NCBI RefSeq assembly: GCF_000422345.1
Contig: NZ_AULP01000004.1
Location: 186,001 to 250,000 of the forward strand
Length of the DNA stretch: 64,000 bases
Direction: 5' to 3'
From: Neomelitea salexigens DSM 19753
GTDB taxonomy: Bacteria; Pseudomonadota; Gammaproteobacteria; Pseudomonadales; Spongiibacteraceae
A program made the translations under genes and the position numbers. The notes under the pieces are model-generated. The model made no database searches and had not been told where the DNA came from. It saw nothing but the letters and a program-made list of their open reading frames with translations. Shown piece after piece: positions 55,713-64,000 of the stretch. Each line of letters opens with the position of its first letter. Within the stretch, counting starts at the first letter, position 1.

Positions 55713-57673
55713 GCGTTCCCCCTCGAGCTACCAGTAATTTTTCCCCGGTAACGTTTATCGCAAATCGCTAACAAACCACCCAACGCCATAAGGATGCCCC
55801 CCAGCCAGATCCAGCGCACAAAGGGTTTAATATGTATTCTGACCGCCCAGGCACGCTCGGCAACGGGCTCGCCAAGCGCGATGTACACATCGCGCAGCAC
55901 ACCGGCATCGATCGCCGCCTCGGTCATCACCTGCGATGCGCGGGCGTGATAGCGGCGTTTCTCAGGTGTTAACTGCGCCAGTAGCGTGTCACCGTCATAC
56001 AAACTAAAACGCCCCTGCTGGCCCTGATAGTTAGGGCCGTTAATGGCTTGAAGGTCGTCGAAAACAACCCGATAGCCAAAGGCGGTTTCGGTGCTCTCTC
56101 CCACATTCATACGCAGGTCGCGCTCGTCTTGAAAACTGGTCACCATACCCACGCCGATCAAGGCAAAGGCCAACCCAAGATGGGCCACAAGCATGCCGTA
56201 GTAAGACGGTGTCAGCCGCCGCAAGCCCGAAACAAAACTTGACGCATTGCGGGTCTTATCGCGCAAATTAATCAGCGTCGTCGCAACAATCCATACAAAT
56301 AGCAACGCCCCGGCACTGGCAGCGAAATGAAATTCGCCGCCGTACAACCACGGCACCGCTACTCCCAACAGCATTGAGGCCAGCAATGCCGCAAGCATCG
56401 CACTCATCCAGCGCTGGGTATTGCTGCGTTTCCACTGCGTACTCGGCCCAATGCCGACCAACAGCGCGAGCAAGCACGTAATGGGTACAAACAAGGCATT
56501 GAAATAAGGCGGCCCCACTGAGTATTTACCCAGGCCGGCAAAATCCATAATAAGGGGGAACAGCGTGCCAAGTAGCACGGTCAATGCGGCAACCACCAAC
56601 AAAATATTGTTAGCCAGCAGCAGCGCTTCTCGCGATAACAACTCGAATGGCTTGGCACTATGTTGCGACGGCGCTTTTAAGGCATACAGGGTTAACGAGC
56701 CGCCAACCACAACAACGAGAAAAGCGAGAATAAACATTCCTCGGGTGGGGTCTGCTGCGAAGGCGTGGACCGACGTTAGCACCCCAGAGCGGACCAGGAA
56801 GGTGCCGAGCAAACTCAATGAGAAGGCAAAAATCGCCAGTAACAGAGTCCAGGACTTAAAGATGCCCCGCTTCTCTGTGACCGCCAAGGAGTGGATCAAC
56901 GCGGTGCCTACCAACCAAGGCATGAAAGAGGCATTTTCAACTGGGTCCCAAAACCACCAGCCACCCCAGCCAAGCTCGTAGTAGGCCCACCAGCTACCCA
57001 GTGTGATACCAATGGTTAAGAACAACCACGCGATATTGGTCCAGGGTCGTGACCACCGCGCCCAGCTGGCATCCATACGTCCGCTAAGCAGGGCTGCGAT
57101 GGCAAAGGCGAACGCCACGGAAAAGCCCACGTAGCCGATGTAGAGCATCGGCGGGTGAATGACCATGCCAGGGTCTTGCAGCAGGGGGTTGAGGTCTTGG
57201 CCATCTGCAGGCGTATTCAGAAGATTGCGCGCAAACGGGTTCGAGGTAAACAAGGCAAAGCCGAAGAAGCCAATGGCAACCATGCCCATCACCGACAGCA
57301 CTCTCGCCAAAATATCCAAGGGGAGTTGCTTGGAAAACACCGCCACGGCAACGGTCCACAGGGTCAGAATCTCCAACCACAATAACAACGAGCCCTCGTG
57401 CCCACCCCACAGCGCACTGAATTTATACGCGACTGGCAACTGAGAGTTGGACTGCAGCGCCACAATATTGACGGAGAAATCATCGCTGAGAAAAGCGTAA
57501 AACAAGCCGCTTATGGCCAGCGTTGTGAACAGGCACTGCCCCCAGGCCAGGGTCGCGCCGGCAGCCATTGCGCGCCGGTCTCCACGCCAGACACCCAACA
57601 TTGGAACAACCGCTAACAGCAGCGCAAAAGCAAAACCTAGAATGAGCGAGAAGTGCCCCAGTTCAATAATCAC
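55709..57673 (-). CDS. ccmF: Haem lyase CcmF
   Basis: 654-residue membrane subunit of the cytochrome c haem lyase. About 14 hydrophobic helices are visible. The WWD haem-binding segment is WGGWWFWDPVENASFMPWL (about 233-251), and PPMLYIGYVGFSVAFAFA and MNPFAR-like SNPFARNLL are recognisable. The GTG start overlaps the ccmE stop (GTGA), and its own stop overlaps ccmG. Confidence 0.97.
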   Translation of the reverse strand: MIIELGHFSLILGFAFALLLAVVPMLGVWRGDRRAMAAGATLAWGQCLFTTLAISGLFYAFLSDDFSVNIVALQSNSQLPVAYKFSALWGGHEGSLLLWLEILTLWTVAVAVFSKQLPLDILARVLSVMGMVAIGFFGFALFTSNPFARNLLNTPADGQDLNPLLQDPGMVIHPPMLYIGYVGFSVAFAFAIAALLSGRMDASWARWSRPWTNIAWLFLTIGITLGSWWAYYELGWGGWWFWDPVENASFMPWLVGTALIHSLAVTEKRGIFKSWTLLLAIFAFSLSLLGTFLVRSGVLTSVHAFAADPTRGMFILAFLVVVVGGSLTLYALKAPSQHSAKPFELLSREALLLANNILLVVAALTVLLGTLFPLIMDFAGLGKYSVGPPYFNALFVPITCLLALLVGIGPSTQWKRSNTQRWMSAMLAALLASMLLGVAVPWLYGGEFHFAASAGALLFVWIVATTLINLRDKTRNASSFVSGLRRLTPSYYGMLVAHLGLAFALIGVGMVTSFQDERDLRMNVGESTETAFGYRVVFDDLQAINGPNYQGQQGRFSLYDGDTLLAQLTPEKRRYHARASQVMTEAAIDAGVLRDVYIALGEPVAERAWAVRIHIKPFVRWIWLGGILMALGGLLAICDKRYRGKITGSSRGNA

Positions 57674-58149
57674 GAGCCGCTGTACTCCTTGCCTGCTGTC
57701 GCCTCCTCGGCACGTGACTGCGCAGATTTTTCCAAGGCTTCGCTGACTTCCGGCGGCATATAATTTTCGTCGTGCTTGGCCAGCACTTCATCTGCGTAAA
57801 ACACCCCGTCTTCTGCAAGTCGACCGGTAACCACGACGCCTTCGCCCTCGGCGAAGAGATCAGGCAAGATCCCTTCATAGGCCACCGCTACGCTGGCACT
57901 GTAATCCGTCACGCGAAAGCGAACTTTCAGGCTGTCAGTGGCGCGCTCCACGGAGCCCTCTTCCACCATCCCGCCAGCGCGAATCTTTTTGTCGAGCGGC
58001 GCTTTGCCCGCGACAATATCGGCGGGCGGATAAAACAGGTTAATATTCTCTCGCAAGGCGTAACCCAAGAACGCCGCCGCTGCCGCACTGGCAAGTAATA
58101 TAAACACGACGATTCCAAGGCGTTGTTTACGCAGGGGGTGCATGGCCAT
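57670..58149 (-). CDS. ccmE: Haem chaperone CcmE
   Basis: 159-residue periplasmic haem chaperone with an N-terminal membrane anchor (about 10-28, LGIVVFILLASAAAAAFLG). The OB-fold domain ends with the haem-binding histidine in ADEVLAKHDENYMPPEV (about 118-134), the standard H-D-E-x-Y-x-P-P-E motif. The protein receives haem from CcmABCD and passes it to CcmF. Its start is an ATG at 58149 (a second one lies two codons later). Confidence 0.97.
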   Translation of the reverse strand: MAMHPLRKQRLGIVVFILLASAAAAAFLGYALRENINLFYPPADIVAGKAPLDKKIRAGGMVEEGSVERATDSLKVRFRVTDYSASVAVAYEGILPDLFAEGEGVVVTGRLAEDGVFYADEVLAKHDENYMPPEVSEALEKSAQSRAEEATAGKEYSGS

Positions 58150-58170
58150 TACAGCCTCCGTAGCATTAAT

Positions 58171-58356
58171 TTAAAACTGATTTTCAGCCCGACGACGGCG
58201 GGCTGCCGCTGCCGCTAGCGCCCGCGCATTGCGACCGCGACGCCGCGATTCAAATACCAGAGCGCACAACACGATCGCGCTGGTGGCAAAACTGAACCAC
58301 ACGTAAGGGCCGTGACCATCCATTTGCCAAAGCTGTTGAAGATTTGCAAATACCAC
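58171..58356 (-). CDS. ccmD: Haem exporter accessory protein CcmD
   Basis: 61-residue membrane protein that helps release of holo-CcmE from CcmABC. The start is GTG at 58356, five bases after GGGGAGG; a longer frame from a GTG at 58380 would overlap ccmC. It has DGHGPYVWFSFATSAIVLC (about 12-30), the conserved G-x-Y-VW helix beginning, and then an Arg-rich cytoplasmic tail. Its position between ccmC and ccmE fits. Confidence 0.93.
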   Translation of the reverse strand: MVFANLQQLWQMDGHGPYVWFSFATSAIVLCALVFESRRRGRNARALAAAAARRRRAENQF

Positions 58357-58369
58357 TACTACCTCCCCC

Positions 58370-59113
58370 TTACTTGCCACTCACCAACGCTTGCACCCAA
58401 CGGGTATTTTTCTCTCGCTCAATAATCTCGGCGCGAACGAACAGCAACAGTACCCAGCCAAAAAACAGATACATGCCACTGAGCGTGGCCATCAACGGGC
58501 GCAACATCGTCGGGTGAATCGTTGATTCACCGACAAACTTGATGCTGGCAGGCTGATGCAAGCTGTACCACCACTCCACAGACCAGTAGATGATTGGGAT
58601 GTTCACCGCGCCAACAATTGCCAGCACCGCGCAAGCGCGCGCAGCGGCGTCGCGGTTTTCAAAGGCTTGATGTAGAGCAATCAAACCCAGATACAGGAAA
58701 AACAAAATCAACACGGACGTGATGCGGGCATCCCACACCCACCATGTTCCCCAGGTGGGCTTTCCCCACACCGCGCCAGTCAACAGCGCAAGAAATGTTA
58801 GCGCTGCGCCAATCGGCGCCGCGGATTTCATGACGATGGCCGCCAGCTTCATACGCCATATCAAATGTACCGCGGCGGCGGTTGCCATCAGCATATAGCC
58901 GCCCATCGCAACGGCGGCGGCGGGAACGTGGATATAGATGATGCGGAAACTATTACCCTGCTTAAAATCAGCGGGTACAAAGGCGAGCCCCCACACGCAG
59001 CCCCCAACAAGCAGCAGCAAGGCGGGAATCGCCAACCAAGGCAACAGGCGCCCGCTAAATTGGTAAAACCAGCGTGGGGAGCCCCATTTGTGAAACCATT
59101 GCCAATTTGCCAA
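58370..59113 (-). CDS. ccmC: Haem exporter CcmC
   Basis: 247-residue six-helix membrane protein that loads haem onto CcmE. The WWD domain is seen as WGTWWVWDARITSVLILFF (about 121-139), flanked by conserved histidines in IIYIHVPAAAVAMGGYML and in YSLHQPASIK. The start is TTG at 59113, with AGGAA eight bases upstream. 30 bases separate it from ccmB. Confidence 0.96.
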   Translation of the reverse strand: MANWQWFHKWGSPRWFYQFSGRLLPWLAIPALLLLVGGCVWGLAFVPADFKQGNSFRIIYIHVPAAAVAMGGYMLMATAAAVHLIWRMKLAAIVMKSAAPIGAALTFLALLTGAVWGKPTWGTWWVWDARITSVLILFFLYLGLIALHQAFENRDAAARACAVLAIVGAVNIPIIYWSVEWWYSLHQPASIKFVGESTIHPTMLRPLMATLSGMYLFFGWVLLLFVRAEIIEREKNTRWVQALVSGK

Positions 59114-59143
59114 AGCCAGTCTTTCCTCAATTCAAACTAACAC

Positions 59144-59830
59144 TTACTGATCCACGCTAATGCGCAGGGCACCGCCAATAGCCAGCGGCGCCAACGCGAG
59201 GGCCGCCATCAGCAGCGCCGCCAACACCGCCAGCGGCGGCAGATATGCCATGCCATCAATGGCGCTTTTCACCGCTGCACTGCCAAAAATCAACACCGGA
59301 ATATACAGGGGTAAGACAATCAACGACAGCAATAGTCCCCCCTTGCGCAAGCCGACCGTCAAGGCGGCGCCAATCGCGCCAATAAAGCTCAGTACCGCGG
59401 TGCCAAGCAGCAGGCTCACCATCAATACGGCAAGCCCCTCTGAGGGCAACTGCAGGATGGTTGCCAACAAGGGCGACAACAGGCTCAGCGGCAAACCGCT
59501 GACCAGCCAGTGACCGAAGGTCTTTGCCAACACCAGAGGGTACAACGGTAGCGGGCTCAACAGGAGCTGCTCCAGGGTCGCGTCGTCGTAGTCTCCGCGG
59601 AACAGGCCATCTGTTGCCATCATCGACGCCAGCAAGGCCACCACCCAGATAATGCCCGGTGCTAACACGGCCAATTGCTGACGCTCTGGGCCGATACCCA
59701 GTGGGAACAAACTGCAAACCATTAAGAAAAACAGCAGAGGGTTGCTCCACTCGCTACCGCGTCGCAGCGCAGCCTGCAAGTCGCGTCGCAACACGGCAAA
59801 CATCACCGTACTGGTACCCATTGGGGTCAC
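59144..59830 (-). CDS. ccmB: Haem exporter permease CcmB
   Basis: 228-residue permease with six predicted helices; with the ATPase CcmA and CcmC it forms the ABC-type complex that releases holo-CcmE. The start is GTG at 59830, four bases after GGGGGAG and overlapping the ccmA stop as GTGA; the long frame back to 59935 inside ccmA is rejected. Segments typical of CcmB: RRGSEWSNPLLFFLMVCSLF and the ATDGLFRGDYDDATLEQLLL block (about 65-84). Confidence 0.95.
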   Translation of the reverse strand: MTPMGTSTVMFAVLRRDLQAALRRGSEWSNPLLFFLMVCSLFPLGIGPERQQLAVLAPGIIWVVALLASMMATDGLFRGDYDDATLEQLLLSPLPLYPLVLAKTFGHWLVSGLPLSLLSPLLATILQLPSEGLAVLMVSLLLGTAVLSFIGAIGAALTVGLRKGGLLLSLIVLPLYIPVLIFGSAAVKSAIDGMAYLPPLAVLAALLMAALALAPLAIGGALRISVDQ

Positions 59831-60465
59831 GACGCTCCCCCCAGTTCTATGCGGCGCAATGGACGGGGCAAGGACAGCGGGTGGTGAGTGGTTAACAACA
59901 CCATTCCCCCGTTGTCGGCAAAGTCGCAGATCCACTGCTCTATTTCCGCGACACCGCGCTGATCTATCGCAGTGAAAGGCTCATCCAATAACCAGAGCTG
60001 GGCCGGGCAGCAAAAAAGTCGCGCCAGATTTACACGTCGCTGCTGACCCGCAGACAAGCTGTAACACGGCTGCTGAATAAATTCCCCCAGCCCCACTTTA
60101 GTCAGGGCGCGATGCAAGTCGGCGTCGGCAACATGCTGCCCTCGCACCGCACAACTCCAACGCAGGTTTTCCAGGGCGGTCAGCTGCGCTTTGATACCGC
60201 TGCCGTGTCCCAGGTACAAACTGTGCTGCCGAAAGTCTTCGCGCTGGGTGATCAAATTCTCACCCCGCCAGTAAATGTCGCCCTCGTAACGCGAAGACAA
60301 ACCGGCGAGAACCTTTAGCAACGTGGTCTTGCCACTGCCATTGGGGCCGGCCAGTTGCACAACGTCTCCAGCGCTAACAGACAGCGACAAGCCCGCAAAC
60401 AATACGCGTTCATCTCGCTCGCTGTATAGGTTGTGTAACTTGAGGTCTGGTGGCGACAAACTCAC
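59827..60465 (-). CDS. ccmA: Haem exporter ATP-binding protein CcmA
   Basis: 212-residue ABC ATPase. Walker A is GPNGSGKTTLLKVLAGL (about 39-55), the ABC signature LSAGQQRRVNLARL (about 136-149) and Walker B LWLLDEPFTAID (about 157-168). It powers release of haem-loaded CcmE. It is first in the ccmABCDEFGHI operon; the 164 bases upstream separate it from the CheA-like gene. The start is GTG at 60465. Confidence 0.96.
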   Translation of the reverse strand: MSLSPPDLKLHNLYSERDERVLFAGLSLSVSAGDVVQLAGPNGSGKTTLLKVLAGLSSRYEGDIYWRGENLITQREDFRQHSLYLGHGSGIKAQLTALENLRWSCAVRGQHVADADLHRALTKVGLGEFIQQPCYSLSAGQQRRVNLARLFCCPAQLWLLDEPFTAIDQRGVAEIEQWICDFADNGGMVLLTTHHPLSLPRPLRRIELGGAS

Positions 60466-60629: not shown

Positions 60630-61445
60630 TTACTGACCGCCGGATTGGTGGCGTTGTAGCCAGCGCTCCATATCCTGGGTCACTAGGTCGAGGTAGGCTA
60701 ACGCCTTATTCAGTTTGTCGCCCTCACTCTCAGCCCGGAACCCCATCAAGCGATTGCGCACCCAGGCCAATTCGCTGACGAGGTCACTGATTTGCGGCTC
60801 GCTGACACGCGCCGCGGCGGGTGCCGATTTCAATTTCTTGTCCACCACCGAAGTCGCTGGGCTATACAGGCTATCCAGCAAGGTGTTCAATTTTGCATCG
60901 GATTGCAGCGCGCGACCGGAAGTGGCCGCAGGCCGTGCATTCACTGCCGATGACCGCCCTCCTGCTGCCGCGTCGAAAAACACATCTAGTAAGGCATCGC
61001 CACTGCGCGGCGCTGACCCCTCTAGCTTCGCTTTCGACTCGTCAATAGCCTGCCCTGCCGCCTTCAGTAGGCGCCCTCTGAGCTCGTCCGGAATGCGATT
61101 GACAGTTTGGTGGTTGATCAACCGGCTCAACATCACTTCTATCGCGCTTGTCGCGCCGACAATCAATGACACCAGGCTCGGGCTGAGGGCAATTCGCCGC
61201 GTTCTGAGCCTATCCATCACGCGTTCACTTAAACGCGCACACTCGGTTAGCTCGACCAGCTCCAAGACGGCAGCGCCGCCATAGAGGGTGTGAAAGCCGC
61301 GGTGGATATCATCCAGTATTCGCTGGCCATCATAGCCGTACTGCAGCTCTTCCAGCTGCGCAAACAAGCCCTTAACAATATCCTCGGCTTCCGCCAAAAA
61401 TATCGCCAGGATACCTTCGTGTTCGTTTGCGTCCACAGTATGCAC
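60630..61445 (-). CDS. Truncated CheA-derived protein (Hpt domain plus partial P3)
   Basis: 271-residue protein. Residues about 8-110 form a P1/Hpt domain with the phosphorylatable His52 in RGFHTLYGGAAVLELVELTE (CheA has HTLKGSAG here, so Lys and Ser are changed to Tyr and Gly). A low-complexity linker follows (about 120-215). The last 53 residues, including SELAWVRNRLMGF and KLNKALAYLDLVTQDM, align with the beginning of the CheA P3 dimerisation domain. The P4 ATPase and P5 CheW-like domains, about 400 residues, are missing; no remnant is seen in the 164 bases after the stop. It starts with GTG at 61445, 128 bases after cheY. It can plausibly receive or pass phosphate but cannot autophosphorylate. 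Confidence 0.8.
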   Translation of the reverse strand: MHTVDANEHEGILAIFLAEAEDIVKGLFAQLEELQYGYDGQRILDDIHRGFHTLYGGAAVLELVELTECARLSERVMDRLRTRRIALSPSLVSLIVGATSAIEVMLSRLINHQTVNRIPDELRGRLLKAAGQAIDESKAKLEGSAPRSGDALLDVFFDAAAGGRSSAVNARPAATSGRALQSDAKLNTLLDSLYSPATSVVDKKLKSAPAAARVSEPQISDLVSELAWVRNRLMGFRAESEGDKLNKALAYLDLVTQDMERWLQRHQSGGQ

Positions 61446-61534
61446 TCTATTGTTATTGATCTCAGACCAGCTGGATCAGCGAATCCGGATTCGTAATGGC
61501 TGGCAATTATGCGCAAAGTCTTGCAGTAACACTG

Positions 61535-61557
61535 TTGGCCCGGTCACAAAGGGCCAA
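61535..61557. repeat. Inverted repeat between cheY and the CheA-like gene
   Basis: TTGGCCC and GGGCCAA with a nine-base loop, 17 bases after the cheY stop. There is no T-run on the minus strand, so termination is uncertain; it might reduce transcription into the CheA-like gene. Confidence 0.4.
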
Positions 61558-61573
61558 TTTTGTAATCAAATGG

Positions 61574-62041
61574 TCATATTTTCGACGTATTCGTGCAAAA
61601 CAGCTCACGAATTTTGCTTTCCAGCATTGCCGCCGTAAACGGCTTAACGATATAGGCATCAACCCCAGCCTGCGCAGCGGCGAGGATTTTTTCCCGCTGC
61701 GCATCAGCGGTGACGATCATCACCGGTATATGCCTCAGGGCACTATCGGCGCGAATAACCCGCAACAGCTCCAACCCTCCCATTTCAGGCATCAACAGAT
61801 CGGTAATCACTAAGTCAAAGTGTTGGTTGTGAAGCATGGGCAATGCCACGCTGCCATCATCAGCTTCACTAATGCGCGCATACCCCAGATCGTTGAGCAG
61901 ATTGCGCATTACACGACGCATGGTGGCGAAATCCTCGACCACCAAAATTCTGATGTCGCGCAAGGACGACGCCCCCCGGGCGGGCGAGTCGCTGTCGACA
62001 TCAGTGCTGGCAAAAGGATCGGGGGAGCGCTCATCACTCAT
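61574..62041 (-). CDS. cheY: CheY-type response regulator with N-terminal extension
   Basis: 155-residue single receiver domain close to flagellar CheY. It has the acidic pair E36-D37 (VVEDFATMRRVMRNLLNDLG), the phosphoacceptor D81 (ITDLLMPEMGGLELL), T111 (MIVTADA) and K133 (IVKPFTA). About 28 residues precede the fold, absent in E. coli CheY (129 residues). The first acidic residue is Glu rather than Asp. It overlaps flhG by eight bases, so the two are translationally linked. In Pseudomonas fliA lies between fleN and cheY; here it does not. No cheZ follows. Confidence 0.9.
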   Translation of the reverse strand: MSDERSPDPFASTDVDSDSPARGASSLRDIRILVVEDFATMRRVMRNLLNDLGYARISEADDGSVALPMLHNQHFDLVITDLLMPEMGGLELLRVIRADSALRHIPVMIVTADAQREKILAAAQAGVDAYIVKPFTAAMLESKIRELFCTNTSKI

Positions 62042-62861
62042 GCGGCGCCTCCATTCCAGCGGGCTGCTGAATCAGGCTCTCTAGAAAAAACGCAAGCTGC
62101 CCAGACGGCTTGCGCGGCAGGGGCCAATCGCTCACCCGCATCGCCAAGTCTCGGAACGCCCGTGAGGCCGGTGCACTCGGGGCATAATCGACCACTGGCC
62201 GCTGTTTTTTCACCGCCTCTCTGAGCGCCGGATCAAAAGGAATGCTGCCGCTGTAGATGAGACTCACGCTTAGAAATTGCTCGCAGACACCTGCCAGCTT
62301 TTGCACTAAGCCGCGCCCCTCATCTTCGTCGCCAACCATGTTGGCCAGAATGCGGAAGCGTTGGCGACCGAAATCACGATTCAATAATTTGATCAGCGCA
62401 TAGGCATCAGTCAGCGACGAGGGTTCATTACAGACCACCACCAGCACCTCCTGACAGGCGTTGGTAAAGGTTAAAACGGTGTCGGTGATCCCCGCTGCCG
62501 TGTCGACAATCAATACATCCAACTGCGCGGCCAAATCACTGAACGCTCGGATCACGCCAGCATGCTGCAACTCACTCAAACGAGTCAGCTGCCTGGCACC
62601 GGAAGACGCCGGGATAATGCGCACACCGGAGGGTCCGCTAATCATTGCTTCTTCCAGTGAGCATTCGCCACTAAGGACCTGCTCAATAGTCCGCGGGGCC
62701 GACAGCGACAACAAAACATCGACATTTGCCAAGCCAAAGTCGGCGTCGAGAATCGCCACACGCTTACCCTGGTGCGCCAGCGCCACAGCGGTATTGATGG
62801 CGACATTGGTTTTTCCTACCCCGCCTTTGCCGCCGCTTACCCCAATAACCTGAACCGTCAT
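62034..62861 (-). CDS. flhG: FlhG/FleN MinD-like ATPase
   Basis: 275-residue MinD/ParA ATPase closely resembling P. aeruginosa FleN, which limits flagellar number by opposing FleQ and acting with FlhF. Deviant Walker A is SGGKGGVGKTNVAIN (about 9-23), DADFGLANVDVLL at 39-51, VDTAAGITDTV near 119 and the C-terminal ending SDWPLPRKPSGQLAFFLESL that matches FleN. flhF, normally just upstream, is not there; a membrane protein gene overlaps its start by four bases instead. Confidence 0.9.
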   Translation of the reverse strand: MTVQVIGVSGGKGGVGKTNVAINTAVALAHQGKRVAILDADFGLANVDVLLSLSAPRTIEQVLSGECSLEEAMISGPSGVRIIPASSGARQLTRLSELQHAGVIRAFSDLAAQLDVLIVDTAAGITDTVLTFTNACQEVLVVVCNEPSSLTDAYALIKLLNRDFGRQRFRILANMVGDEDEGRGLVQKLAGVCEQFLSVSLIYSGSIPFDPALREAVKKQRPVVDYAPSAPASRAFRDLAMRVSDWPLPRKPSGQLAFFLESLIQQPAGMEAPHE

Positions 62862-63415
62862 AAAGCGCCTCTCCCAGTAAGGGAGTTTTGCGGGTATCGA
62901 TAGCTACCAAAATAGCGGTGCCGAGTATCGAGGTATCGCAATCCGATTTGGGCCAGCTCGCGTCTAAGCAGACGCTGATGAAGCGTGGGGCAATCAACAA
63001 ATACCAGGCCGCTGGCACTCGACCACGCTTCCCGGTATGTCTCATACACGGGATTTACGCGCATGGTGCCGAGTAAACCGCCCAGCCAAAGCCCAAAGAA
63101 AATCAACGCGCTGGGCAGGGCGTAGCGAACCACTGCCTGCATCGCCCCGGAGAGCTCGCGGCTATATGGCCAGAGTACGGTAACCAACACCGCTGAAATG
63201 ACCGCGGCCCAGACTGCACCACGCCAGCTGAGCCCAGGAATATCGCTCAGCTGCAGCTCATTAAGATGTGGCAACGACGCTGCCGGAGAACGCGTCTCGT
63301 CCCTCGCCCACAGTCGCAGGCGCCAGTGCGCCCCCTGCTCACACTGCATCTGCGCCCAACATTCCAGTGCAGACAGTGCGGATGCATCGGGAATAACAAA
63401 TACCATTTTATTCAT
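62858..63415 (-). CDS. Two-helix membrane protein of unknown function, DUF1269-like layout
   Basis: 185-residue protein that I do not recognise with certainty. It has an N-terminal alpha/beta piece (MVFVIPDASALSALECWAQM), two membrane helices (about 67-86 and 95-115, the second glycine-rich with FFGLWLGGLLG), and a C-terminal alpha/beta piece (SGLVFVDCPTLHQRLLRREL). The two outer parts look alike, and the whole layout recalls DUF1269-type proteins of Pseudomonas. It is wedged between fliN (two-base gap) and flhG (ATGA overlap), where fliO-flhF would normally be. It is too long and wrongly organised for FliO. It may anchor the neighbouring proteins at the membrane. Confidence 0.6.
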   Translation of the reverse strand: MNKMVFVIPDASALSALECWAQMQCEQGAHWRLRLWARDETRSPAASLPHLNELQLSDIPGLSWRGAVWAAVISAVLVTVLWPYSRELSGAMQAVVRYALPSALIFFGLWLGGLLGTMRVNPVYETYREAWSSASGLVFVDCPTLHQRLLRRELAQIGLRYLDTRHRYFGSYRYPQNSLTGRGAL

Positions 63416-63417
63416 AG

Positions 63418-63807
63418 CTATCGCAGCGACTGCAAACGTTCGGTGGCGCTCACAACCTCAGTCAGCCGAATACCAAGTTTGTCATCAACCACCACCACCT
63501 CTCCTCGCGCAATCAGCCGACCATTGACGAGGACATCCAGCGGCTCGCCTGCTTGGCGGTCCAGCTCCACCACCGCGCCCTGCTGCAACTGCAAGAGGTC
63601 ACGGATGGCCATGTCACTGCCCCCCACCTCCAGGGTGACGCGGACGGGAATGTCCATCACCATATCGAGGTCCGGCGCCGCCGCTGCGCGCTCTCGAAGC
63701 CGGGCCTGCCCCAGCAGGTCAGACGCTCCAGACGGCTCGCCCTCTTCCGCTTCTATTTGTTGGCGCAGCATCTCACGCTCTCGCCGCAGGTTTTCTGGCT
63801 CAGTCAT
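63418..63807 (-). CDS. fliN: Flagellar motor switch protein FliN
   Basis: 129-residue protein from the ATG at 63807 (GAGGAG seven bases upstream; a GTG five codons earlier is possible). The N-terminal 45 residues are charged; the C-terminal SpoA domain (about 48-128) contains DMVMDIPVRVTLEVGGSDMA, LLQLQQGAVVELDRQAGEPL and VNGRLIARGEVVVVDDKLGIR, all typical of FliN. FliN forms the C-ring bottom with FliM. It follows fliM closely as usual, but instead of fliOPQR the next gene is a membrane protein of unknown function. Confidence 0.92.
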   Translation of the reverse strand: MTEPENLRREREMLRQQIEAEEGEPSGASDLLGQARLRERAAAAPDLDMVMDIPVRVTLEVGGSDMAIRDLLQLQQGAVVELDRQAGEPLDVLVNGRLIARGEVVVVDDKLGIRLTEVVSATERLQSLR

Positions 63808-63825
63808 TGCCTCACTCCTCACACG

Positions 63826-64000
63826 CTATGCGCGCCCTTTTATTTTTAACGCCAACTGCCCCTTGCTCATGCCGACACTGGCCTTGAGCAGCGATACGCC
63901 GGATGCACGAATTTCGGCTTGCTGACAACTCCCCAAGCTCAGCACATCCCCCACCTTTAAATTTGCCACTTGCCCCAGTGTCATCGCTTTATCTGCCAAC
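63826..64000 (-). CDS. fliM: Flagellar motor switch protein FliM, C-terminal end (cut by window edge)
   Basis: Only the last 57 codons are in the window; the frame runs off the right edge. The residues LGQVANLKVGDVLSLGS, EIRASGVSLLKASVGMSKG and QLALKIKGRA at the end are those of a FliM C-terminal SpoA domain. The stop TAG is at 63826-63828 and fliN begins 18 bases on. A FliN-like protein is the alternative, but order and sequence favour FliM. Confidence 0.75.
   Translation of the reverse strand, partial: LADKAMTLGQVANLKVGDVLSLGSCQQAEIRASGVSLLKASVGMSKGQLALKIKGRA

Follow-up and report, generated by a model that had tools for sequence, protein, structure and literature searches.

The stretch of the marine bacterium Neomelitea salexigens DSM 19753 analysed here (the window, 64,000 nucleotides; GCF_000422345.1, contig NZ_AULP01000004.1, 186,001-250,000, coded G000:C4:186001-250000) ends within an operon for flagellar C-ring proteins, a FlhG-type ATPase, a CheY receiver and a truncated CheA (CheA'). 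The results suggest that in this operon, hereafter the module, part of a rotary motor has become a signalling device, in a cell that also encodes a separate, complete flagellum. Repurposing, which a preliminary description of the window had already put forward, is supported because in 20 of 20 module loci FliG has lost its torque residues but retains the FliM-docking motif. We regard it as highly probable that the module is a non-motor signalling scaffold maintained by selection. In the following, the suffix 2 (FliG2, FliM2, FliN2, FlhG2, CheY2) denotes the module copy of a protein and the suffix 1 the copy in the complete flagellar locus on contig C1. G000 is the window's genome, G0xx labels refer to other sampled genomes, and C1, C3, C4, C5 and C9 are contigs of G000.

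FliG2 has lost the torque residues and is tied to remnants of FliF

FliG2 was searched for in 57 genomes, and the loci of 19 relatives were read in detail together with the window's own, giving 20 module loci. The relatives include Spongiibacter marinus (G013), as well as S. thalassae, S. pelagi, Zhongshania antarctica, Z. marina, Z. aliphaticivorans and Z. aquimaris. For Spongiibacter, gene deletion has been achieved in S. nanhainus CSC3.9 (PMC8805636). The 426-aa FliG2 of the window's genome carries two hydrophobic helices at its N-terminus and matches FliG_N (E 2.2e-19), FliG_M (E 9.9e-21) and FliG_C (E 1.9e-14), with a score below the NCBIfam fliG cut-off (150 vs 226.7). Torque residues, which we take to be the aligned Arg and Asp columns of FliG, were scored by alignment column in 20 module, 16 main-locus and 22 order FliGs. 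Both the Arg and the second Asp of the torque helix are present in 16/16 main and 22/22 order FliGs and in 0/20 module FliGs. Likewise, the first acidic position of the helix is occupied by D or E in every one of the 38 flagellar FliGs and in none of the 20 module FliGs. The FliM-docking motif EHPQ occurs in 58/58 FliGs, including all 20 from the module.

FliG2 is accompanied by shortened forms of FliF. Twelve genomes have a separate mini-FliF gene (216-340 aa) before fliG2, each product with a predicted N- and C-terminal transmembrane (TM) helix. The mini-FliF is fused to FliG2 in G004, G018 and G019, and only a TM segment plus the FliF tail is fused to it in G000, G013, G007 and G001. Altogether, a predicted membrane helix is tied to FliG2 in 19/20 genomes, and an RBM3 region was found in 15/20 (not in G000, G001, G007, G010 or G013). 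In hhalign comparisons, a profile built from the 12 separate fragments matched the order FliF at 97.0% (E 8.4e-11) and the main FliF at 94.7%, with two control membrane profiles at 0.1% and 1.3%. The three fused rows gave 96.7% and 94.4%, with an FlhA control raised to 16.8%. Within the 570 columns of FliF, the aligned part begins at column 404 for the 12-row profile and at column 342 for the 15-row profile, and the fragments lack RBM1 and RBM2. A structure model of one fragment (seven sequences) had a mean predicted local distance difference test score (pLDDT) of 73 and a predicted template modelling score (pTM) of 0.40. FliF RBM3 occupied the first 13 rows of the Foldseek search with this model (E 1.9e-4 to 1.7e-3), and its comparison with FliF RBM3 gave a VIA Z of 12.4 (root-mean-square deviation 3.2 over 95 residues), where unrelated OsmC-type folds reached up to Z 9.2. 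Pfam gave no match for the three separate fragments tried or for the G018 fusion, and a sub-cut-off FliF_C match (E 0.0085) in the G004 fusion. Profiles and model together indicate that the mini-FliF is RBM3 plus the FliG-binding tail of FliF.

Gene layout of the module

All module frames named in the preliminary description (fliM, fliN, membrane protein, flhG, cheY and cheA') are present and intact, on the minus strand and in the order given there. Coordinates are those of the window, unless a contig is named.

63826-64000, minus strand: C-terminal part of fliM2, open at the window edge
C4:249826-250803, minus strand: whole fliM2 gene, 325 aa, crossing the window edge (PF02154 E 2.9e-41, PF01052 E 9.2e-13; NCBIfam fliM_switch 230.1 bits, cut-off 219.6)
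63418-63822, minus strand: fliN2, 134 aa (PF01052 E 3.9e-25; NCBIfam fliN 112.5 bits, cut-off 84)
62858-63415, minus strand: two-TM protein, 185 aa (hydropathy and structure model)
62034-62861, minus strand: flhG2/fleN-type MinD-like ATPase, 275 aa (ParA/MinD-type Pfam matches; P-loop intact)
61574-62041, minus strand: cheY2 receiver, 155 aa, phospho-acceptor D81 (PF00072 E 5.2e-29)
60630-61445, minus strand: cheA', 271 aa, P1 Hpt domain plus P3-like segment (PF01627 E 1.1e-9; hhalign)
57670-60465, minus strand: ccmA, ccmB, ccmC and ccmE, neighbours outside the module (ccmA by family model, the rest from sequence)

The genes had been described as overlapping or nearly touching. The TM protein gene and flhG2 overlap by 4 bp and flhG2 and cheY2 by 8 bp, and cheY2 is separated from cheA' by 128 bp. 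The key residues singled out earlier (CheY D81, the FlhG P-loop and the Hpt His, which is His52 of CheA') are in place. The operon starts beyond the window edge with the 426-aa TM-FliF-tail-FliG fusion, a 112-aa HptB-like Hpt protein (His57 within AHTLKGG) and the remainder of fliM2; ttcA, named from sequence, lies upstream. There are no export, flhF, fliA or cheZ genes at the locus. Export, rod, hook and filament references had no match in the 19 other module loci, and visual inspection of the window's own locus revealed no such gene. A promoter/terminator scan found nothing above chance (5 found vs 3.7 expected; 4 vs 7.8).

The module is conserved in the genus and under purifying selection

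Conservation of the gene set in related genomes, which the preliminary description had named as a check, was observed. A second FliG was present in 18/18 genomes of the genus and in 2/3 other genomes of the family, the one without it being G020 (70% complete). The 36 genomes of other families had one FliG match in 25 cases and none in 11. Similarly, in an order-wide sample of 244 genomes, a second FliM at an E-value of 1e-8 or lower was found in 10/10 family genomes vs 0/165 other FliM-bearing genomes. Site and core gene order are the same in 20/20 module loci. FliG, FliM, FliN and CheY are encoded in all of them, as is a CheA-like protein if the weak copies of G018 (26 bits) and G019 (40 bits) are counted. 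FlhG2 and the HptB-like protein are present in 18/20 loci and missing in G018 and G019, where fliG and fliM abut. The TM protein was also found in 18/20 loci, 16 by single-sequence search and G014 and G018 by profile; the G010 locus has no room for it and the G019 locus no such frame. Downstream, ccmA and/or ccmB follow the module in 20/20 loci, and ttcA lies upstream in 10/10 loci whose upstream gene was read.

Ratios of nonsynonymous to synonymous substitution rates (dN/dS) were calculated by the Nei-Gojobori method for three close genome pairs; single ratios are rough, with dS low for some genes in the window's own pair (0.046-0.27). The values were 0.025-0.035 for FliM2, 0.050-0.056 for FliN2, 0.034-0.038 for FlhG2, 0.039-0.099 for FliG2, 0.018-0.12 for CheY2, 0.013-0.19 for the HptB-like protein, 0.063-0.29 for the TM protein, 0.12-0.28 for CheA' and 0.20-0.33 for the mini-FliF (two pairs). 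Within the pair that includes the window's genome, main flagellar genes gave 0-0.033 and ccmB 0.085, with CheA' and the TM protein at 0.28-0.29. The module is therefore under purifying selection, with parts less constrained than the working flagellum and with CheA', the TM protein and the mini-FliF loosely held. Decay was rejected on these ratios (0.013-0.33 across the module) and on the retention of the module across genomes, in agreement with the earlier proposal of selection over decay.

A complete flagellum is encoded elsewhere in the genome

A complete flagellar locus lies at about 499-538 kb of C1 and comprises fliC, fliD, flg genes, fliE to fliN, fliP-Q-R, flhB, flhA, flhF, flhG and fliA. 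Its gene names come mostly from sequence, with family models backing FliM1, FliG1, FlhG1, FlhX and a FliK-like protein. The single FlhA-family gene of G000 (C1:504796-506763) lies within it. Because this locus is complete and has its own switch proteins, the cell still has a flagellum, and the suggestion that the module stands instead of one does not hold. The export, flhF, fliA and cheZ genes described as missing are indeed missing at the module locus, but the export genes, flhF and fliA are found on C1, and the CheZ family was not found anywhere in the genome. G000 has two copies each of fliM, fliN, fliG and flhG, one in the module and one on C1, and C1 also has its own fliF. A normal but split flagellar locus, the alternative named at the outset, called for single copies of fliM and fliN; it was ruled out by this second set of fliF, fliG, fliM, fliN and flhG.

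No che or mot genes were recognised in the C1 flagellar locus. A full-length CheA (688 aa) is encoded on C9. Among 13 genus genomes searched, flagellar-size CheA is missing in five (G001, G002, G003, which is 84% complete, G011 and G012), ChpA-size CheA is present in all 13, and one MotB match occurs in 12, on C3 in G000. The CheZ family is absent from all 13, including G000, and was found in 4/6 other members of the order. A quick FlhA tree places the main flagellum among other orders. Lateral gain of the main flagellum is only a lead, since the approximately unbiased (AU) test fails to reject its union with its own order (p 0.454).

The module looks like a remnant of the order's fli-che cluster

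In the order-mate G026, flhG-fliA-cheY-cheZ-cheA-cheB-mot-parA-cheW runs up to ccmA; a fli-che cluster was not next to ccmA in the three other order-mates inspected (G021, G024, G025). An Hpt gene lies between fliG and fliM in 3/3 order-mate loci showing all three genes (G023, G025, G040), and an Hpt match was found in 7/22 order loci overall, several of which are incomplete. Because the order-mate gene orders agree, the module follows the gene order of the old cluster (fliF', fliG, hpt, fliM, fliN, flhG, cheY, cheA', ccmA). It has the look of a remnant of the order's fli-che cluster with the gene order preserved, cut down to C-ring and phosphorelay genes, and the ccm neighbourhood marks the ancestral site of this cluster.

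In an unrooted FliM tree of 42 rows, the 20 module rows form one clade (100/98) within a group of module and order sequences, which is split from 11 main FliMs at 100/100. FlhG2 groups with the order FlhG, away from FlhG1, in a quick, unrooted tree of 33 rows (4 from the order) built without two long-branch odd rows, G029 and G034; the loci inspected for an outgroup yielded no FlhG. A second complete locus had been expected to make the module a duplicate. The trees instead point to a second, paralogous set that is no plain duplicate, as FliM2, unlike FliM1, groups with the flagellar FliM of the order in the unrooted tree. By pairwise score, the order FliG is closer to FliG1 than to FliG2, a ranking that would fit fast change of FliG2 and gives its descent no support.

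Signalling residues of FliM2, CheY2, CheA' and FlhG2

The FliM2 N-terminus reads (L/M)SQxE(I/V)DALL in 20/20 module copies (LSQAEIDALL at residue 13 in the window's genome). The FliM1 N-terminus is L(D/E)PEE(L/I)EAL in 9/9 genus rows read and L(D/E)QEEIDAL in two rows of the sister genus. The canonical N-terminus is thus kept by FliM2 and lost by the genus's working FliM1 (G000:C1:510513-511466 and relatives), whose motif is degenerate. Among order-mate FliMs, LSQ(D/E)EIDALL was read in 9/11, and G034 has LTPEELEAL.

CheY2 of the window scores 152.8 bits against the CheY model, below the cut-off of 189; its phospho-acceptor Asp is present in 18/20 copies, replaced by Ala in G004 and Glu in G014. 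The phospho-acceptor His of CheA' is conserved in 16/17 aligned rows, with Asp in G004. The 17-row CheA' profile matches the P1 domain of order-mate CheA at 99.3% (E 2.4e-20, hhalign). A P3-like C-terminal segment (LVxELxWVRxxL...YLDLVTxD) was recognised by alignment alone in 7 of 10 displayed module rows; it has no match in G004, and CheA' of G018 and G019 stops before it. The alignment ends at this segment and no HATPase_c or CheW match was found in CheA'. G007 retains the internal repeat of CheA. The G004 module (L056) has neither the CheA' His nor the CheY2 Asp, and all its module genes are present. This joint loss, a single case, would fit a shared function of CheA' and CheY2.

The P-loop of the window's FlhG2 starts at residue 10. 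The TM protein model shows two TM helices with an alpha/beta lobe on each side (mean pLDDT 77.5). The protein has neither a Pfam match nor a PDB match under E 1e-3. It is a module-specific copy of a membrane-protein family with profile matches in 123/244 order genomes. An ordinary copy of this family lies at G000:C5:135800-136354 (L126:5801-6355), with no Pfam match above cut-off.

A proposed docking platform and its alternatives

The switch-forming and CheY/FlhG-binding parts are kept, and the turning and export parts lost. We think that the module probably forms a non-motor, mostly membrane-tethered switch complex, a platform on which CheY2 and FlhG2 dock under the control of a phosphorelay. 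The ancestral polar fli-che cluster beside ccm would have been reduced at its original site to fliF'-fliG-hpt-fliM-fliN-flhG-cheY-cheA', to which a membrane protein was recruited, with swimming served by the other, complete flagellar locus. FliG2, tied to the membrane via a truncated FliF or a TM segment, would recruit FliM2 and FliN2 by its EHPQ motif into a membrane-bound, C-ring-like patch. As the FliG torque residues are gone, this patch should take no torque in the usual way. Phosphate would reach CheY2 via the Hpt proteins CheA' and HptB-like. CheY2 and FlhG2 may both dock on the FliM2 N-terminus, where phosphorylated CheY2 would displace FlhG2. The freed FlhG2 might act elsewhere, for example on a FleQ/FlrA regulator or on the pole or flagellar number, as a flagellum-free partner switch; for the sister genus, which has no FlhG2, the output would have to be CheY2 or the membrane protein itself.

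CheY binds the N-terminal end of FliM. A docking platform with competition between CheY2 and FlhG2 is favoured because FlhG and CheY both bind this end. In monotrichous flagellates, the FliM N-terminus is bound by FlhG, and FlrA/FleQ is inhibited by FlhG, according to PMC12826062. For the individual steps, the chances that CheY2 acts on FliM2 seem evenly balanced, and release of FlhG2 as the output in the genus is rather doubtful. The full scheme, in which a switch complex has been transformed in situ into an independent membrane platform that does not rotate, reads a CheA'/HptB-like-to-CheY phosphorelay and controls a MinD-family ATPase while the cells swim with the other flagellum, is offered tentatively, at slightly less than an even chance.

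Several observations weigh against this reading. A simple hydropathy scan detected no TM helix in FliG2 of G010, which carries the FliF tail and has no frame of RBM3 size upstream. In CheY2, the metal pocket has lost its second acidic residue in 9/20 copies, and the Lys of HxxKG is lost from CheA' in 18/20 (Tyr in 16, including the window's; His in G009, Gln in G004), staying in G018 and G019. Because G004 lost both His and Asp and G014 has Glu for Asp, phosphotransfer is sometimes dispensable, and because FlhG2 is absent from the G018 and G019 loci, FlhG release is no universal output. Moreover, every module genome has a second, ordinary FliG, and 10 sampled ones have FlhA, so that a service role for the main flagellum may remain. 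No clear case of a module without a flagellum was found when the FliM and FlhA matches were compared by eye; the five FliM-bearing genomes without an FlhA match (G042, G131, G161, G220, G246) are all 65-89% complete.

Such a service role could take the form of spare parts, with FliM2 and FliN2 mixing into the FliG1-based C-ring and restoring, under regulation by CheY2, the CheY-responsive N-terminus lost by FliM1. The canonical motif in FliM2 but not in the genus FliM1 would agree with this, as would the fact that the module was never seen in a flagellum-less genome. However, the module has its own FliG2, tied to FliF remnants and with a conserved docking motif, the five genus genomes without flagellar-size CheA keep the module, and so does the sister genus, whose FliM1 retains EIDAL; we consider this explanation improbable. 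Quite improbable, too, is a decoy of the nascent MS-ring/C-ring that titrates or mimics the MS ring-rotor checkpoint sensed by flagellum-associated kinases and so tunes flagellar gene expression. In its minimal shape, such a checkpoint consists of FliG and a truncated FliF, and polar flagellates sense the MS-ring, rotor and export core, as reported in PMC7064773. But the checkpoint depends on the export core and probably on multimerisation of FliF, RBM3 is not found in 5/20 genomes, and FliM, FliN, CheY and CheA' would be superfluous.

A functionless relic in slow decay would account for the uneven erosion, with the mini-FliF at dN/dS 0.20-0.33 and CheA' and the TM protein at 0.28-0.29 vs 0.085 for ccmB, for the phospho-acceptors lost in G004 and for the TM protein missing in G010 and G019. 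It is very unlikely in view of the open frames, the dN/dS of 0.025-0.099 for the core genes and the retention in 18/18 genus genomes. We give hardly any credence to a miniature rotating motor powered by the cell's stators: FliG, FliM and FliN are present and 15/20 genomes have an RBM3-bearing FliF fragment, but the torque-helix residues are lost in 20/20, the loci have no rod, export or filament genes, and the one MotB match per genus genome (12/13) lies on another contig in G000. An injectisome remnant was ruled out, as no export gene is nearby.

DNA flanking the module locus

Outside the window and directly upstream of the module lies a block of about 8.7 kb (G000:C4:252789-261605, L002:7789-16605; L059:1-8817; L061:1-8733) that by sequence contains two P450, AraC, MarR and HlyD genes, among others. 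It is 98.4-98.6% identical across three genomes of two genera, and its flanks align piecewise only, at 72-86%. The block enters ttcA at the same spot near the PP-loop and replaces its 5' part; ttcA of S. marinus has the usual start. The block resembles a mobile island targeting ttcA. Contig C4 ends within an IS3-type transposase orfA-like gene (from sequence; G000:C4:265520-265760).

Comparison with known systems

The module resembles the flagellar C-ring on its FliF MS-ring in the FliG N/M/C, FliM and FliMN_C domains, EHPQ, the FliM N-terminus and the C-terminal FliG-binding tail of FliF. It differs in having no export, rod or filament genes, no torque residues and no full periplasmic FliF, which is cut to RBM3 plus tail, TM segment plus tail, or tail alone. 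In CheA' P1, the P3-like sequence, the internal repeat in G007 and the equivalents of the phospho-acceptor Asp, Thr, Tyr and Lys in the window's CheY2, it is like the polar-flagellar CheA and CheY of Pseudomonadales. Unlike there, CheA' has no kinase or CheW-like domain and mostly another residue for the HxxKG Lys, and CheZ, CheB and CheW are missing from the locus. Injectisome ring proteins of the SctQ type (e.g. Spa33) are another case of FliM/FliN-fold proteins used outside the flagellum, but injectisomes export, and no export gate or ATPase gene is linked to the module.

There is also a likeness to the FlhG/FleN-FliM-FlrA partner switch of monotrichous flagellates, for which Blagotinsek 2020 is reportedly the primary paper. 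As in the system described in PMC12826062, a FleN-type FlhG and a motif-bearing FliM are encoded together; unlike in that system, FliM2 is distinct from the FliM encoded in the complete flagellar locus, the operon also includes CheY and Hpt proteins, and binding by FlhG2 is putative. No description of such a module was found in the literature searched by titles and abstract starts, which is no proof of absence as most subscription papers fall outside that coverage.

The C-ring is known as a part of the motor and as an export platform. A C-ring set with neither torque residues nor export genes, kept by selection, would show that the binding of CheY and FlhG can function on its own, and would be a natural separation of the signalling role of the switch from its mechanical role. 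Moreover, one family offers a reduction series, from mini-FliF over fused mini-FliF and TM segment plus tail to the tail only, which is useful for asking which parts of a machine persist once its first job ends.

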